The position numbers and the translations under genes are program-made. From NCBI RefSeq assembly GCF_030273315.1, contig NZ_CP127174.1, positions 930,001 through 994,000 on the forward strand: a stretch of 64,000 bases of DNA. The letters run 5' to 3'. Under the pieces are notes generated by a model. The model did no database searches and was not told where the DNA came from. It saw nothing but the letters and a program-made list of their open reading frames with translations. This stretch comes from Natrialbaceae archaeon AArc-T1-2 (GTDB taxonomy: Archaea; Halobacteriota; Halobacteria; Halobacteriales; Natrialbaceae). Positions 5,218 to 50,061 of the stretch are shown here, piece after piece (the stretch's first letter is position 1; each line of letters begins with the position of its first letter).

Positions 5218-5637
5218 CTAAGCCACGTCCTCGAGGACGCGGTGGGCGTAGAACGCGACCGAAAAGTCCTGCGGGCTCGGCAGGGCACAGCCGAGCCAGC
5301 CGACGACGGCCGCCGTCGCGACGGGATCGTCCGCCCCCGGAAGGTGGCCGCCGACGCCGAGTGCGAGCACCGGCACGGCGAGTGCAAGCGGCATCAGCGC
5401 CGCGATCCGGAGCACCCACGGCGACTCGTGGCCGGTCGGCCGCGGTTCGACCCGCGCCCACGGCGTGCTCGCGAGCGCGGCGACGACGCCGTCGGATCGG
5501 TCGGGAACGTACTCGAGCGTGTACTCGACGCCGGCGAGTTCGAGGACGAACGCGTGGGCGTGTTCGTGTACGATCAATCCGACCACGACGGCGAACGCGA
5601 GAACGGGGGCAGCGACGATCAGGTCCGATCCGATCAT
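5218..5637 (-). CDS. Membrane zincin-like protein with HExxH (DUF3267-like)
   Basis: A 139-residue protein from ATG 5637 (MIGSDLIV); a longer frame upstream adds Arg/Ser-rich residues unlike the rest and overlaps the neighbouring promoter. The first helix carries a zinc-protease motif HEHAH at residues 24-28, followed by a soluble stretch and further hydrophobic segments near residues 75-95 and 105-125. The pattern matches small membrane-embedded putative metalloproteases (DUF3267-like). No second zinc ligand can be assigned with certainty. It converges with uvrA with only four bases between stops. Confidence 0.7.
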   Translation of the reverse strand: MIGSDLIVAAPVLAFAVVVGLIVHEHAHAFVLELAGVEYTLEYVPDRSDGVVAALASTPWARVEPRPTGHESPWVLRIAALMPLALAVPVLALGVGGHLPGADDPVATAAVVGWLGCALPSPQDFSVAFYAHRVLEDVA

Positions 5638-5710
5638 TCGTCCGCCGGATTCGTCGACCCGGCTATCAATCCGTCGGTTCCGTTCCGAACGCGGACGGCT
5701 CACAGCCAAC

Positions 5711-5720
5711 AGTTAAATAT
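5711..5720 (+). promoter_or_regulatory. TATA box of the GNAT gene at 5742
   Basis: The sequence AGTTAAATAT lies 22-31 bases before ATG 5742. That is the spacing of an archaeal TATA box for a leaderless or nearly leaderless transcript, and it stands out in very GC-rich surroundings. Confidence 0.6.
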
Positions 5721-5741
5721 AGGGAAGTGCTACCGCAGCCC

Positions 5742-6473
5742 ATGCCATTCACCGAGGATCTCGAGTTCGGTCACGAGGACCGAAAGCGAATCTACGAGTA
5801 CGTCGAACGACACGGGGCGGTCGAGCCCGATGAGATTCGGAAACAGTTGAATCTCGATCCGGGCGGGGCGCGCCATCACATCGCGATCCTCAAACGGGAC
5901 GGTCGCCTCGAAAACCGGAACGGAACCCTCCAGGTCACGATCGACGCTGGAGCCGAAGAGGAGTACAGAAAAGAGGACCTCGAGTTTCACATCCGACCGG
6001 CCAGACAGGACGACCTCTCGGGCATCGTCGGTGCCATTCGACAGGTCGCCAGAGAGCGGACGTACATCGTCGCCGAGAGCGTCGCCGACGAGATCGACCA
6101 CGAGGACGCACTGTTGCGGTACAACGAGGTCGAATCGCGGATGTTCTTCGTCGCGACGGTCAGCGACGAGGTCGTCGGCTGGGTTCACCTCCACAGTCCC
6201 GAACTCGACAAACTAAGCCACACTGCCGAGCTCACCGTCGGCGTCTTAGAGGAGTATCGCGGCCACGGCATCGGCTCACACCTGCTCTCGCGCGGGCTCG
6301 AGTGGGCCAGCTCGAACGGCTACGAGAAAGTGTACAACAGCGTTCCCTCGACGAACAAGGAGGCGATCGCCTTCCTCGAGTCACATGGCTGGGAGACCGA
6401 AGCGGTCCGGGAGGACCACTACAAGCTCAACGGTCACTACGTCGACGAAGTGATGATGGCCCTCAAGCTGTGA
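5742..6473 (+). CDS. GNAT acetyltransferase with N-terminal winged helix
   Basis: A 243-residue protein whose first 60 residues form an HTH of the ArsR/MarR kind (EDRKRIYEYVERHGAVEPDE, then GGARHHIAILKRDGRLE). Residues 75-243 form a GNAT fold with the acetyl-CoA loop YRGHGIGSHLL. The ATG at 5742 is chosen because a TATA-like box lies 22-31 bases upstream; longer upstream frames lack similarity to either domain. Such proteins probably acetylate a small amine or a protein N-terminus, and the HTH may let them bind DNA or simply act as a dimerisation module. The substrate cannot be told from sequence. Confidence 0.88.
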   Translation: MPFTEDLEFGHEDRKRIYEYVERHGAVEPDEIRKQLNLDPGGARHHIAILKRDGRLENRNGTLQVTIDAGAEEEYRKEDLEFHIRPARQDDLSGIVGAIRQVARERTYIVAESVADEIDHEDALLRYNEVESRMFFVATVSDEVVGWVHLHSPELDKLSHTAELTVGVLEEYRGHGIGSHLLSRGLEWASSNGYEKVYNSVPSTNKEAIAFLESHGWETEAVREDHYKLNGHYVDEVMMALKL

Positions 6474-44047: not shown

Positions 44048-45028
44048 CTAGGACAGCGAGAGGCCGCGAATTTCGACGCTGTTACCGTCTTCTACCCGCC
44101 CAATCACCCGGCCGTCGGTCTCGGCGACGAGGTTCTCGGCTCGATCCTCGGAGACGGCGACGACGAAGCCGGTTCCCATGTTGAACGTCCGGTGCATCTC
44201 CTCGTCGGAGACGTTGCCCTCCGCCTGAACGAACTCGAAGACCGGCCCTGCCGGGAGTGGGTCGTCGATGACGTAGGCGTACTCGCCCATCCGGAGTAGG
44301 TTCGTCCACCCGCCACCCGTGACATGGGCTGCGGCGTTGACTCCGTGGGAACGCATCGGCTCGAGTAAGTCCGTGTAGATCCGAGTCGGCCGGAGCAGTT
44401 CCTCGCCGATCGTTCGCTCCTCGTCGCCCGGGAACGGGTCGGTGTACTCGTGGTCGCGGGTGACGGCCTCGCGGGCCAGCGTCAGCCCGTTGGAGTGAAT
44501 GCCGTTCGACGGGAAGCCGACGAGCACGTCGCCGACCTGGGCCTCGCCCTCGAAAATCTCGTCTTTCTCGGCCAGTCCCACACAGGTCCCCGCGAGGTCG
44601 AAGCCCTTCACGACCTCGGGCATGACGGCGGTCTCGCCGCCCAACATCGCGAGGTCGGCCGTCTCGAGGCCGACGGCCAGCCCCTCGCCGACCTCGTTCG
44701 TGACGTCCTCGTCGGGCTCGTCGATCGCGAGGTAGTCGACGAACGCCACGGGGGTAACGCCGGCCGCGACGAGGTCGTTGACGTTCATCGCGATGCAGTC
44801 GATGCCGATCGTCGAGTAGTCCTCGATGGCCTCGGCGACGAGCAGCTTGGTGCCGACGCCGTCGGTCGCAAGCGCCAGGTAGCGGTCGCCGATGTCGAGC
44901 AGGCCGGCGTACTCGGTCGTCAGGCCGCTGCCGAAGGCCTCGAGCAGCGCCGCCGTGGCGTCCTCGCTGGCCTCGATGTCGACTCCGGTGTCGGCGTAGG
45001 TGAGTCCGTCGTCGTCTCGATCGCTCAT
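44048..45028 (-). CDS. purM: Phosphoribosylformylglycinamidine cyclo-ligase (PurM)
   Basis: A 326-residue AIR synthetase starting MSDRDDDGLTYADTGVDIEA. Motifs are LATDGVGTKLLVAEAI, IGIDCIAMNVNDLVAAGVTP, MLGGETAVMPEVV, FPSNGIHSNGLTLAR and AHVTGGGWTNLLR. It forms aminoimidazole ribonucleotide with ATP in purine synthesis. It stands alone here with respect to other pur genes. Confidence 0.97.
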   Translation of the reverse strand: MSDRDDDGLTYADTGVDIEASEDATAALLEAFGSGLTTEYAGLLDIGDRYLALATDGVGTKLLVAEAIEDYSTIGIDCIAMNVNDLVAAGVTPVAFVDYLAIDEPDEDVTNEVGEGLAVGLETADLAMLGGETAVMPEVVKGFDLAGTCVGLAEKDEIFEGEAQVGDVLVGFPSNGIHSNGLTLAREAVTRDHEYTDPFPGDEERTIGEELLRPTRIYTDLLEPMRSHGVNAAAHVTGGGWTNLLRMGEYAYVIDDPLPAGPVFEFVQAEGNVSDEEMHRTFNMGTGFVVAVSEDRAENLVAETDGRVIGRVEDGNSVEIRGLSLS

Positions 45029-45121
45029 ACCCGGGAGAGCACGGGGCGCGAGCAAAAGGCCACCGGTCCGGGCTCGTGTGACGACGGAGGGCCCGATCGA
45101 GATCGGCCTCGCCGGCGTCCA

Positions 45122-45511
45122 TCACTCCGGCCGGGCGGAACGGTAGCCGGCGACGGCCTCGTCGACGAAATAGACGAGGACGGTGAGGACGACGACGGCG
45201 ATCCCGACCGACTCCAGCTCGACGCCGACGATGGAGCGATCCCCGGCGGAGACGATCACGGCTCCGGCCCCGAGGAGGACGACGAGCATCGCCAGGTACC
45301 GCCACCGTGCCTCGACGGGGACAATCCCGCCCTCGCCACGGAGAGCGAGATAGAGGTGTGCGCCGCCGAAGACGAGCCCGTAGAACAGCAGTGCCACCCA
45401 GACCGGTGCCGGCCCCGTCTCCGGTAGGATGCCGGCGTACTCGAGGGCGAACAGCAGGAACACCGCAAGCAGGACGGCACAGACGTGGACGATCGTTTCG
45501 CGGGAGACCAT
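45122..45511 (-). CDS. Four-helix membrane protein of unknown function
   Basis: A 129-residue protein with four membrane helices (about 5-24 IVHVCAVLLAVFLLFALEY, 34-56 PVWVALLFYGLVFGGAHLYL, 68-86 and 96-116). Charged residues lie between helices 2 and 3. No family is recognised. It is upstream of purM on the same strand with a 93-base gap. Confidence 0.75.
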   Translation of the reverse strand: MVSRETIVHVCAVLLAVFLLFALEYAGILPETGPAPVWVALLFYGLVFGGAHLYLALRGEGGIVPVEARWRYLAMLVVLLGAGAVIVSAGDRSIVGVELESVGIAVVVLTVLVYFVDEAVAGYRSARPE

Positions 45512-45615
45512 ACGCGTACCTGCTCGAGTCGCGCAAAAAACGTTGCGTCGGTGTCGGATGGAACGCGTCTCCCACGAGCGGTACTGACTTCCCCTCGAGC
45601 GACGATACGTCAGCT

Positions 45616-46107
45616 ATGACCGACGATCGCCTCGAGTACGAACCGATCGGAACGATCCACACGCCGTTCGAGTCGCCGGAGGAGATGCCGATCCAGCCCG
45701 CCGGGGCAGACGCGGACGGGACTGTCGAGCTGGCGCCCGCGTACACCGAGGGATTGCAGGATCTGGACAGGTTCAGCCACTGCCTGTTGCTCTATCACTT
45801 CCACGAATCGAACGACGAGGTCGCCATGACCGTTGAGCCGTTTCTCGACGACGTCTCGCGCGGTCTCTTCGCGACGCGAGCCCCCCAGCGACCGAATCCT
45901 ATCGGCCTCTCGGTCGTCGAAATCGACGCGATCGACGAGAACGAGCTGACCGTCACCGGCGTCGACGTCGTCGACGGGACGCCGCTGCTCGACGTCAAAC
46001 CGTTCGTCCCCCAGTTCGACGTTCCGGCGGACGACGTCGAGACCGGGTGGCTGGACGCCTCGACGTCCGCGATCGAATCGACGCGAGCGGACGACAGGTT
46101 CGTCTGA
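45616..46107 (+). CDS. trmO: tRNA m6t6A37 methyltransferase, TrmO/TsaA family
   Basis: A 163-residue TrmO-type beta-barrel protein: EYEPIGTIHTPFESPEEMPI, DLDRFSHCLLLYHFHESN and the SAM-binding signature FATRAPQRPNPIGLSVVEI, ending with TPLLDVKPFVPQFD. It N6-methylates threonylcarbamoyl-adenosine 37 in certain tRNAs-Thr, although family specificity in archaea is not proven. Its TGA stop begins a palindromic element (TGATACGGATTGCTGT). Confidence 0.93.
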   Translation: MTDDRLEYEPIGTIHTPFESPEEMPIQPAGADADGTVELAPAYTEGLQDLDRFSHCLLLYHFHESNDEVAMTVEPFLDDVSRGLFATRAPQRPNPIGLSVVEIDAIDENELTVTGVDVVDGTPLLDVKPFVPQFDVPADDVETGWLDASTSAIESTRADDRFV

Positions 46108-46189
46108 TACGGATTGCTGTCCCTGTGTCCCGGGGCAACCGCGGCCCGTCTGTGGGTTCGCCGGTACTGATTTACATCGGACCGTATTA
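46105..46189 (+). repeat. Palindromic element spanning stop to stop between trmO and E2-OsmC gene
   Basis: It starts with the TGA of trmO (TGATACGGATTGCTGT) and ends with the complement of the TAA stop of the converging gene, read on the minus strand as TAATACGG. The inner arms carry GGGGCAACC and, on the other strand, CCGGCGAACC. It shares its first 37 bases (28 identical) with the element at 33568. A bidirectional terminator or a REP-like element is the best guess. Confidence 0.65.
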
Positions 46190-47566
46190 CGCCCGGCTCC
46201 AGCCGAGGTCGGTCTCGAGGTCTGCCCGAAGCAGCTCCGCGACGTGGCAGGTCCGTTCGCCGGCCTCGACGATCCGCTCGAGGACGTCGTCGTCGGCGTC
46301 GGCGTCGATCGTCACGTCGAGCGCGATCGATTCGACGGACTCGCTGTCGTCCGCCGGTGAGCCGACCGCCCGAACCTCGAGGGTCGCGAGATCGACGTCG
46401 CGGATGTCGGCCTGGATGCCGATGCTCGAGGCCAGACAGGCAGACAGCGCCCCCAGGAAGTAATCGACGGGCGTCGGTGCACTGCCGCCGCCGAAGTCCT
46501 CGGTGACGTCGAAGGGCCAGCGCTCGCTGCCGGCGTCGACCGCCCCCGAGAGGTCGGGCTCGAGGCTCGCGGTGACGTCCCGTTCCGGGAGTTCGACCGC
46601 GCCCGCGCCGTCGCCCCGCCAGTCGACGTCCGCCGGGACGTCCGCGGCCGTCACGTCGGGAAGCAACGGCCAGGGCTCCTCGAGGTGGCCGACCAGCGTC
46701 TCGAGGAAGCGGGCGGCGTCGGCCCCGTCGACGACGCGGTGGTCGAACGAAAGATCGACCGGAAGCGTCCGCCGGACCGTGAGTTCGCCGTCGCGGGCGA
46801 CCGGCCGTTCCCGCAGGGCGTCGACGCCGAGGATGGCGACCTGTGGCGGGTTGATGACGGGGTCGAACGATTCGACACCGAGCGGACCGAGGTTCGTGAC
46901 GGTGAACGTGGCACCGGTGAGATCCGTCATGGTGTACTCGCCAGAGCGTGCCCGGTCGGTCATCCTGGCTCGTTCGCAGGCGAGATCGCCGATCGAGCGC
47001 TCGTCGACGTCCCTGACGACCGGGGTGAGCAGTCCGTCCTCGACGTCGACGGCGACGGCAATGTGATGTGACTCGTGGAGTCGGTGGACGCCGCCCTCGA
47101 AGGTCGCGTTGAACGACGGGTGTTCCTCGAACGTCGCCGAGAGGGCGGCGAGGAGGACGTCGGTCACCGTCACCGACTCCTCGTGGACGAAAGCGGCGGC
47201 CGTCGCGGCGGCGCGGAGCTCCTCGGCGTCGGCGATCCGGCGTTCGGTGACGTGGACGGCCTCGCGGTAGCTCCTGCCGAGTCGGTCGCTGATCGTCCGT
47301 CGCATTCCGTCGAGGGGGCGTTCCTCGAGAATTCCCTCGGGCGTGTCGTCGTTCTCCTCGTCCTCTTCGGCTTCGGTCTCGACGTCGTCGACCGGTTCGT
47401 CACCGCCGTCGGTCATCGCCTCGAGCCCGACGGTTGCCTCCCCGGATTCGACCGCCCCGCTCCGTTCTCCTGTCGCGACTGGCTCACCCTCGTCGACGAA
47501 CCAGGCCGGGAGTCTCACGCGATCGCTCCCCGTCTCGAGGTCCGGAATCTCGACTCCGTCTCTCAT
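46187..47566 (-). CDS. E2-type acyltransferase fused to OsmC domain, degenerate lipoyl domain
   Basis: A 459-residue protein from ATG 47566 (MRDGVEIPDLETGSDRVRLP). Residues 5-50 look like the first half of a lipoyl domain, but the lipoyl lysine position reads ESGEATV, with Glu43 instead of Lys. The second half-domain and a peripheral subunit-binding domain are missing; an acidic linker (58-82) follows. Residues 85-300 form the 2-oxoacid dehydrogenase E2 catalytic domain with DHRVVDGA (His276, Asp280). Residues 312-459 form an OsmC-type domain with both cysteines (SACLAS Cys377, RTCHVAE Cys440). No E1 or E3 gene is adjacent, so it may be an acyltransferase or thiol peroxidase outside the classic complex. 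Confidence 0.88.
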   Translation of the reverse strand: MRDGVEIPDLETGSDRVRLPAWFVDEGEPVATGERSGAVESGEATVGLEAMTDGGDEPVDDVETEAEEDEENDDTPEGILEERPLDGMRRTISDRLGRSYREAVHVTERRIADAEELRAAATAAAFVHEESVTVTDVLLAALSATFEEHPSFNATFEGGVHRLHESHHIAVAVDVEDGLLTPVVRDVDERSIGDLACERARMTDRARSGEYTMTDLTGATFTVTNLGPLGVESFDPVINPPQVAILGVDALRERPVARDGELTVRRTLPVDLSFDHRVVDGADAARFLETLVGHLEEPWPLLPDVTAADVPADVDWRGDGAGAVELPERDVTASLEPDLSGAVDAGSERWPFDVTEDFGGGSAPTPVDYFLGALSACLASSIGIQADIRDVDLATLEVRAVGSPADDSESVESIALDVTIDADADDDVLERIVEAGERTCHVAELLRADLETDLGWSRA

Positions 47567-47668
47567 GGAGAGACCAACACCAGGCGACGGCATAAAGTCG
47601 GGGAGTGGACGATCCACAGCCGTCAGCTCGAGTCGAGAGTGTCGAATGAGGAGGCGGTCCGAGTCGGT

Positions 47669-48292
47669 CTACCACCAGAATCCGAACACGAGGAAGAAGC
47701 CGACGAGCAAGGCGACGCTCAACGCGAACGTGCCGGCGAAGACGGCTTTGCTCCACCCGAGGACGGATTTACCATCCAGCGGGCCAAACGGGATCATGTT
47801 GAACGCGGCCAGAAAGAGGTTGATCAAGACCCCGAGGTGGCCGATCACGCCTAAGACGCCGGGGAACGCGATCAACGGGAAGAAAAGCACCGCGAGCACG
47901 AGGTTCGTCGACGGTCCGGCGACCGCGATCAGCCCGTTCTCTCGCTCGGTGATCCGGCCGCTGTGATAGACTGCACCCGGTGCAGCGACGAGAAAGCCGA
48001 TCAGGGCGCTCATGACCGCGAGAAACAGCATCTGGTAGTCCGCCCGGAACTCGGCGACCTGTCCGAACTCGATCGCGACGACCTTGTGGGCGAGTTCGTG
48101 TGCCAGGAAGGCGACGCCGACGGTGACGAAGCTCAACGCCGTAAGCGTCAGAAACGAGCCGATCTCGAAGCCGCCCGCCGCCGGCGGGTCGAGAAACAAC
48201 GCGAACGCGACGCTCAGGGTAACCCAGGCGACGCCGAGGTCGAACCGCTCTTTATCGCTGAAGGAAATCTCGGGTTCGGTACGGTAGCTCAC
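47669..48292 (-). CDS. M50/site-2-protease-family membrane metalloprotease
   Basis: A 207-residue protein starting with GTG 48292 (VSYRTEPEISFSDKERFD). It has about six helices with the zinc motif AFLAHELAHKVVAIEFG (His65, Glu66, His69) and the second motif NMIPFGPLDGKSVLGW, whose Asp is the third ligand. Members cleave membrane-bound substrates. The GTG overlaps the stop of the TraB-family gene (GTGA), so the two are probably co-translated and might act together at the membrane. Confidence 0.93.
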   Translation of the reverse strand: MSYRTEPEISFSDKERFDLGVAWVTLSVAFALFLDPPAAGGFEIGSFLTLTALSFVTVGVAFLAHELAHKVVAIEFGQVAEFRADYQMLFLAVMSALIGFLVAAPGAVYHSGRITERENGLIAVAGPSTNLVLAVLFFPLIAFPGVLGVIGHLGVLINLFLAAFNMIPFGPLDGKSVLGWSKAVFAGTFALSVALLVGFFLVFGFWW

Positions 48293-50061
48293 GAGATCAC
48301 CTCCCGGATCCCCTCGAGGGTGTTCTCGGCACCGGCGAGCAGTTCGGCCATCAGGGCATCGACACCGCCGATGTCGGGCGCGAGCCAGGGCAACACGACG
48401 AACGGGAACAGGACGGTCGCGATCATGCTCCCGACGTTCGTCAGCGCGACGATCATGATGAGCCGAAACAGGGGCACGTCGAGCATCTCCTCGAACAGCT
48501 CCCCGATCGGTTTCTCGGTGTCGCCGATGATGTCGTTGAGAAGCTGGATGTCGCCGACGTTGACCGGCCGGTGGCGCAGTTCGACGTAGCCGGCGAACCA
48601 GCCCGGAGCGAGCAGCGGATTGATGCTCGTCAGCCACGCGACCGCACCGCCGACACCCGCGCTGGTCCATCGCGCGCCGGCCAGGCGAGCAAGCGTGAAC
48701 GCGAAGACGCCGTTGAACAGCACCCAGGCGAGAAACACCTGGAGCAAGAAGGTGTTCTGGACGCCCGCCATGAGAAGCAGGAAGAAAAAGCCGACAAAGC
48801 CGATCATGACGAGGTAGCTAAGGACTTTCAGCACCGAGAACCGTCGCCCCGAGTCGGTGCCGGTGATCGACTCCATCGGCGGCAACGAGTCGGGAGCCTC
48901 GAGGTGCCGTTCGATACCGGCTTTGTGGCCGGCGCCGACGACGGCGACGACGTCGTATCCCTGCTCTCGTAACGCGTGGAGCTTGTGGGCGATGTAGGCG
49001 TCGCGTTCGTCGATCAAGGCGTTTGCGCCCTGGGGACTGAAGCGTCGGAACTCCTCCATCATCGCCGAGACGACGTCGCCGTCGGTCAGCTGTTCGATGT
49101 CGATCTCGTCTAGCTCTTCGGGGTCGTCCGCGAGGGCATCGAGGGCGATTCCGATCATACCGCCGACGAGCACGCCCAGTCCCAGTCCGGCGAGTGCGCC
49201 GACACTTCCGCGGATCGTCAGGGTGCCGGCACTCTCGAAGGTGGTGGCCTCGAGCGGGCCGATTCCGGTTCCGGTGACGACGAGCGCGAGCGACCCGACG
49301 ACGCCGATTCCGGCACCGGCGAACAGCCGCATCGAGAAGCCATCGAGGAGTCCGCCGGTGTACTCCGGGGCGTTCTCGAGCGACGGCAAGAACAGCAGTC
49401 CGAGTAAGAGTCCACCGACGACGCCGATCCCGCCCGCGCCGACGTACTGCAGCGTCGCGGAGTCAGTGACGCCGAGTGCGAGCGTCTCGCCCAGCCCGAG
49501 AAGCGGCGCGACGAACGCGGCGAAGATTAGACCGACGAAGACGCCGAGTCCGGCACCGAGAGAGAAGCCGATCGTCCGCGGATCGGTGATTCCGAGCGCG
49601 AGCCCGCCGACCATCCTCAGTTTTTCGGAAACCGAAAGCCGGGCCCAGAACCGCTGGATCGTCACCTGGATGTCCCGATCGACGAGGGCGACCCCGGAGC
49701 CGTTTCGCTCGGCGGCGTCGATCGCAGCCTGCATGTCAGCGCCGGGTTCGATGTCGAAGCGCTCGCCCAGCCGGGACTGGACGTACGACAGCATCCAGTA
49801 GGCGAGAAACTGGAAGACGGTGTTGCCGCTCAACAGATCACGGGCCTCGATGTCCTCGGGGGTTCCACCTTGCATCTGGCGGAACCGACTCTCGTCGAGT
49901 TCCACGGCGACGACGTCCGGTCGCTCCGCATCGACGGTCTCGTGTACCTCCTCGACGCTCGCCTCCGAAACGTGTGCCGTGCCGAGAACCGTGACGTCGC
50001 CACGCTCGCGTTCCGGCGGATCAGGAGGGTCCGGAACGCTCGCGTCGCCTGCATCACTCAT
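48289..50061 (-). CDS. TraB-family protein with multiple membrane segments
   Basis: A 590-residue protein from ATG 50061 (MSDAGDASVPDPPDPPERER). The N-terminal TraB domain shows VTVLGTAHVSEASVEEVHET and PDVVAVELDESRFRQM; a later piece, VVAVVGAGHKAGIERHLEA near residue 370, completes the fold. Long hydrophobic stretches (about 170-330 and 400-590) add a dozen or so membrane segments, some unusually Gly/Ala-rich (GLALGITDPRTIGFSLGAG). TraB relatives include pheromone-shutdown proteins and mitochondrial TRABD; the archaeal role is unknown. Confidence 0.9.
   Translation of the reverse strand: MSDAGDASVPDPPDPPERERGDVTVLGTAHVSEASVEEVHETVDAERPDVVAVELDESRFRQMQGGTPEDIEARDLLSGNTVFQFLAYWMLSYVQSRLGERFDIEPGADMQAAIDAAERNGSGVALVDRDIQVTIQRFWARLSVSEKLRMVGGLALGITDPRTIGFSLGAGLGVFVGLIFAAFVAPLLGLGETLALGVTDSATLQYVGAGGIGVVGGLLLGLLFLPSLENAPEYTGGLLDGFSMRLFAGAGIGVVGSLALVVTGTGIGPLEATTFESAGTLTIRGSVGALAGLGLGVLVGGMIGIALDALADDPEELDEIDIEQLTDGDVVSAMMEEFRRFSPQGANALIDERDAYIAHKLHALREQGYDVVAVVGAGHKAGIERHLEAPDSLPPMESITGTDSGRRFSVLKVLSYLVMIGFVGFFFLLLMAGVQNTFLLQVFLAWVLFNGVFAFTLARLAGARWTSAGVGGAVAWLTSINPLLAPGWFAGYVELRHRPVNVGDIQLLNDIIGDTEKPIGELFEEMLDVPLFRLIMIVALTNVGSMIATVLFPFVVLPWLAPDIGGVDALMAELLAGAENTLEGIREVIS

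Follow-up and report, generated by a model that had tools for sequence, protein, structure and literature searches.

An E2-OsmC fusion protein of a haloarchaeon that has lost its lipoyl arm and adjoining E1 genes, and may work with a lipoyl group in trans

E2 enzymes are the textbook case of a tethered swinging arm, and a gene in the genome of Natrialbaceae archaeon AArc-T1-2 raises the question of what such an enzyme does once the arm is gone. The gene lies in the 64,000-nucleotide stretch that we analyzed (positions 930,001 to 994,000 of contig NZ_CP127174.1; hereafter, the window), and a sequence-only reading had described it as a 459-residue frame that joins an E2 acyltransferase core to an OsmC domain. 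Indeed, the frame was found there, on the minus strand, and the E2 core is intact, with His276 and Asp280 as well as OsmC cysteines 377 and 440 all at the positions given by that reading (Table 1). Pfam places a 2-oxoacid_dh domain (PF00198) at residues 81-301 (E 1.5e-66) and an OsmC domain (PF02566) at residues 359-452 (E 1e-14), and it finds no match to a lipoyl (PF00364) or E3-binding (PF02817) domain in the protein even at E 1. Sequence and fold searches both match solved E2 cores (~30-38% identity), and the core has its active-site His/Asp in common with dihydrolipoyl acyltransferase E2s. In contrast to a standard E2, however, the protein has no lipoylatable lysine, no E3-binding domain, and no adjacent E1 or E3 gene, and it carries a C-terminal OsmC domain. 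When the whole AlphaFold2 model was searched with Foldseek, the 50 top matches were E2 entries only, so the OsmC part was compared by sequence profile instead.

Table 1. Location of the fusion gene, its parts and its flanking markers in the window.
Feature	Coordinates	Strand	Basis
E2-OsmC fusion gene, 459 aa	46187..47566	-	ORF and Pfam
Codons 1-50: degenerate first lipoyl half with Glu43 in place of the lysine; evolves fast, disorder predicted	47417..47566	-	alignment, relative rate, AlphaFold2, weaker coding signal
Codons 51-80: acidic linker at the site of the deleted second lipoyl half and binding domain(s)	47327..47416	-	alignment
Codons 81-301: E2 acyltransferase core, DHRVVDGA with His276/Asp280	46664..47326	-	Pfam, PDB E2 matches
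Codons 320-459: OsmC domain, Cys377 and Cys440	46190..46609	-	Pfam, alignments
TATA-like element TTTATG, 30 nt before the fusion start codon, distance as in many homologues	47591..47596	-	
purM-to-fusion stretch; E1-alpha, E1-beta, and acoX of relative G120 absent	45029..46186		
purM, syntenic marker on one flank	44048..45028	-	
M50-like peptidase and TraB-like genes, syntenic markers on the other flank	47669..50061	-	

The same fusion occurs in one continuous frame in 38 of 125 genomes of the family (Natrialbaceae) and also in further haloarchaeal families, which excludes a joining artefact; thus, the frameshift or assembly error near codon 305 that the sequence-only reading had considered is ruled out, and the fusion is conserved across haloarchaea. 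The E2 motif is intact in all 38 family fusions, His276 and Asp280 (DHRxxDG) are invariant in 37 sequences, and the neighboring residues of the window core are unchanged too. In a tree of E2 sequences, the window protein groups with the fusions, and core-only E2s form a clade of their own. The window fusion is a member of the haloarchaeal, AcoABX-linked E2-OsmC family, based on the same fusion and an orthologous locus. It shares its domains and their order, its start, and its promoter position with other members (e.g., G120, L033; G049, L034), and in G120 the locus is the same as well; these members have a full lipoyl domain with its lysine, one or two binding domains, and adjoining E1 genes, whereas the window fusion has neither the domains nor the genes. 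The gene was not found in the congener G122, whose genome is only 67% complete, so its lack there carries no weight. A scan of genome contigs with the fusion protein as the single query matched only an OsmC in a planctomycete, and we found no description of a haloarchaeal E2-OsmC fusion in the open-licence literature, a scope that does not take in the main Haloferax papers on such operons.

What remains of the arm is confined to the N terminus. The first 50 residues align with the first lipoyl half of the relatives (MRDGVEIPDLETGSD...VESGEATVGLEA in the window vs. MGYVVKIPKLGLEMD...IESEKTTGKVEA in relatives), and Glu43 occupies the position of the lipoyl lysine (ESGEAT vs. ESEKT). Beyond these ~50 residues, the protein lacks the rest of the lipoyl domain and the two binding domains, in line with the sequence-only reading, which had noted the loss of the second half and of a subunit-binding domain. 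AlphaFold2 gives residues 1-74 a pLDDT of <50 and folds no lipoyl half-barrel there, and both the E2 and the OsmC domain are folded. Codons 1-50 show a weaker coding signal. Relatives conserve the same start codon, and many of them also have the TTTATG element; translation could conceivably start solely at a downstream Met in the linker, but the position of the TATA element agrees with the first Met instead.

By its own account, the sequence-only reading would be refuted by close homologues that all carry the lysine and a full lipoyl domain. Close homologues do carry both, along with binding domains, which refutes a lysine-less family and leaves the statement on the window protein standing. 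None of the 36 other in-frame fusions of the Natrialbaceae genomes searched has lost the lysine (in-frame N-termini other than that of the window, with G073 left out as frameshifted there), and all seven fusions sampled from other haloarchaeal families keep it too. Two close relatives scanned with Pfam, G085 and G120, both contain lipoyl, two E3-binding, E2, and OsmC domains. A wholly lysine-less subfamily is ruled out, the window fusion being the sole in-frame lysine-less case among the 44 fusions compared. We are confident that the loss of the lysine is a secondary reduction in one lineage and not a trait of the fusion family. The fusion gene of G073 (L008) changes frame within the lipoyl region, through either a sequencing error or a real loss.

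The surroundings of the gene were reduced in the same lineage. In G120, the order is purM, E1-alpha, E1-beta, acoX, fusion, M50-like, and TraB-like; the window has purM, fusion, M50, and TraB in the same order, with E1-alpha, E1-beta, and acoX gone, and tblastn detected no remnants of acoA, acoB, or acoX in the window. G085 is an intermediate: it has no acoA or acoB, retains a frameshifted acoX fragment beside purM, and encodes a fusion with an intact lipoyl domain. The fragment (L032:3751-4247) is a relic of the lost AcoABX genes. Neither the window genome nor that of G085 contains a close AcoA orthologue (best matches ~44%). Most relatives of the fusion adjoin E1-alpha, E1-beta, and AcoX genes, so the sequence-only observation that no E1 or E3 gene is adjacent holds for the window and not for most of the family. 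The same applies to its conclusion that the protein is not a standard complex E2, which is right for the window organism and does not extend to a family with full lipoyl and binding domains and E1 adjoining. The usual form of the family thus runs from a lipoyl domain through one or two subunit-binding domains and the E2 core to OsmC, and it would serve an adjacent AcoA/AcoB-type E1. In the window lineage, the adjoining E1-alpha, E1-beta, and acoX genes have very probably been lost, and erosion has removed the lipoyl and binding domains.

Nine genomes present the mirror image of this arrangement. They have AcoABX and no fusion, and a lipoyl/binding-domain E2 is encoded there instead (L062:10901-12418, minus strand; L061; L133-L139). 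In this pseudo-E2 family, the lysine and binding domains are present and the active-site His is lost, being replaced in all eight aligned sequences (D[AT][RHC] for DHR). An active core-only E2 is found in seven of the nine genomes, within a split operon of E1-alpha, E1-beta, and a free lipoyl protein. Four of the nine have a separate OsmC gene beside acoA, ~40% identical to the OsmC of the fusion, which is absent there (L062:7162-7578, minus strand; L061; L138; L139). These genomes indicate that E2s without lipoyl and binding domains are normal for the split operon. Core-only E2s of this kind (L040, L041, L043, L048) resemble the window fusion in having no lipoyl or binding domain and must take the lipoyl group from a separate protein; they differ from it in lacking OsmC, in being encoded inside the operon, and in forming a separate E2 clade. 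In this group, the lipoyl, docking, catalytic, and OsmC modules have thus been split up between separate proteins on more than one occasion, and an E2 core served by a lipoyl domain in trans is plausible on these grounds.

Does the window genome offer such a domain? It encodes two E2 cores. One is the fusion; the other belongs to a complete PDH-like operon, whose further genes encode E1-alpha, E1-beta, and E3, the single E3 of the genome above cut-off. It also has a split operon, a type found in 55 of the 125 family genomes, that contains no E2 gene and lies ~50 kb from the fusion (L051; C1:1025492-1027793). The free lipoyl protein of this operon has 85 aa, matches PF00364 (E 5e-15), and has the lipoyl lysine. 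It belongs to the single-domain lipoyl proteins, a named class in archaea (PMC3904984), and is a carrier only, with no catalytic domain. Just before the operon there is an extra E1-alpha-like gene (L051 ~5391-6242, plus strand; C1:1024390-1025241). The window itself includes a lipoate-protein ligase-like gene at 10279-11118 on the plus strand (PF21948, E 3e-29; RRxTGGGG..HD motif).

Within the family, the fusion and an E2 core in the split operon are mutually exclusive: the operon core is present in 0 of 28 genomes with the fusion vs. 19 of 27 without (Fisher 8e-9, a value that is overstated because the genomes are related). Placed on the tree, this corresponds to 7-8 state changes with three independent contrasts on well-supported branches and none contradicting, numbers with which significance is out of reach. 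In the other families of the order, the operon core and another E2 of this clade occur together in 1 of 27 genomes (G406, which has both the operon core and a distant-type fusion); where such a further E2 is lacking, the operon core is present in 13 of 49 (Fisher 0.014).

Altogether, the window protein is best read as an orphaned but functional E2-OsmC that depends on a lipoyl arm in trans, with the 85-aa carrier as the likeliest partner, a reading that we regard as evenly balanced. The core would still pass to CoA the acyl groups that it receives from the lipoyl group of a separate protein, most likely that of the E2-less operon, with the lipoyl domain of the PDH-like complex as the alternative. 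OsmC would draw on those same dihydrolipoyl groups for cysteine-based reduction. A dihydrolipoyl partner in trans, which the sequence-only reading had proposed as well, still seems the best mechanism.

The chemistry of the OsmC domain is a separate matter. Both cysteines are kept in the window protein and invariant in all 38 fusions, which bears out part of the sequence-only assignment to the thiol peroxidases; the other part is weakened by the absence of the Ohr-type Arg and Glu from the whole fusion family. In a profile comparison with solved Ohr proteins, the loop of the catalytic Arg is replaced (GGRNG), and the position of the catalytic Glu is Val, NPE having become P[ST]PVD in 38 of 38 fusions. 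The domain thus has the fold and both cysteines in common with the Ohr/OsmC family (PF02566) and differs from it in lacking the Ohr Arg and Glu and in its fusion to E2. Among NCBIfam models, it comes closest to one for OsmC-related (seleno)proteins, with a match far below the cut-off. The Ohr/OsmC family includes the YhfA branch, for which no peroxidase activity has been shown (PMC4069020). A cysteine redox role is likely for a domain of this sequence, and peroxidase activity is doubtful because the Ohr Arg and Glu are missing.

Compatible with the in-trans reading, and differing from it only in the chemistry of OsmC, is the idea that the protein combines acyltransfer with hydroperoxide reduction, OsmC being a true lipoyl-dependent peroxidase. 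Lipoylated proteins serve as reductants of Ohr enzymes (PMC5962072, PMC4069020), and the family fuses OsmC to a lipoyl protein. However, the Ohr-type residues are absent, and in Xylella Ohr the R19A and E51A variants leave residual lipoamide-dependent activity only (PMC5962072). We thus consider true peroxidase activity possible but rather unlikely.

Other haloarchaea argue against a strict need of split operons for such an E2. Outside the family, 36 of 76 split operons are in genomes without an E2 of that clade (E 1e-60), and all 20 sampled split operons have no adjoining E2, so split operons often rely on an E2 encoded elsewhere, whichever it is. The twenty sampled haloarchaea (L142-L161) have split operons with no E2 alongside and no clade E2 in the genome at E 1e-60. 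Since a split operon can use another E2, the window fusion need not be its partner. It might instead be a generalist with no dedicated E1, taking acyl groups from any lipoyl domain (mainly that of the PDH-like E2) or passing them from CoA to small thiols, as the sequence-only reading had also suggested. The intact E2 core residues, the complete PDH-like complex that supplies lipoyl groups, and the many split operons that manage without a clade E2 all fit this idea, but it leaves the rare co-occurrence of operon core and fusion unexplained, and we consider it improbable.

The three parts of the protein have evolved at different rates. In the lipoyl part, the window protein is 40/36% identical to G085/G120, vs. 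78% between G085 and G120; the corresponding values are 78/77% vs. 86% for the E2 part and 71/74% vs. 78% for the OsmC part. A relative-rate test with the nearest outgroup counts 18 changes vs. 2 in the lipoyl part (p 4e-4; more distant outgroups give a weaker result), and counts of 14 vs. 19 in E2 and 6 vs. 14 in OsmC, neither of which is significant. These rates suggest that the E2 core and OsmC have been kept under selection. In the E2 tree, the end branch of the window protein is ~1.6x as long as the path to its sister sequences, which leaves room for mild relaxation.

Slightly less probable than a generalist E2 is that OsmC is the retained function and the E2 core an oligomerizing scaffold that displays it, OsmC being reduced by lipoyl in trans. 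This would agree with the invariant OsmC cysteines, with the lack of significant acceleration in OsmC, and with its well-predicted fold in the window fusion. The E2 His/Asp and their neighbors are unchanged, however, whereas the scaffold-like E2s beside AcoABX have lost the His, and the window genome contains three other OsmC genes. Least probable is an early-stage relic, made useless by the loss of E1-alpha, E1-beta, and acoX and decaying from its 5' end, which would match the eroded lipoyl part, the lost partner genes, the one relative with a partly decayed locus, and the longer E2 end branch, but not the preserved open frame, TATA element, codon usage, catalytic residues, and E2 and OsmC rates.

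Returning to the orphaned E2-OsmC with lipoyl in trans, we tentatively suggest a further step, possible but rather unlikely: the protein could be a two-headed enzyme without an arm of its own, an acyltransferase and a thiol reductase fed by one diffusible 85-aa lipoyl carrier, the same lipoyl group giving its acyl load to CoA or electrons to an oxidant. If true, such an enzyme would be the end point of a visible series in which the lipoyl, docking, catalytic, and OsmC modules of archaeal oxoacid dehydrogenase complexes repeatedly pass to separate proteins. The substrates of the haloarchaeal systems are mostly unknown (PMC8305020). The locus is a natural experiment in which the arm and docking domains were lost and both catalytic heads kept, and living relatives still show an intermediate as well as an intact state like that of the ancestor. 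Two questions thereby become testable: whether one E2 core is common to several E1s of these systems via free lipoyl carriers, and what OsmC does on an E2.
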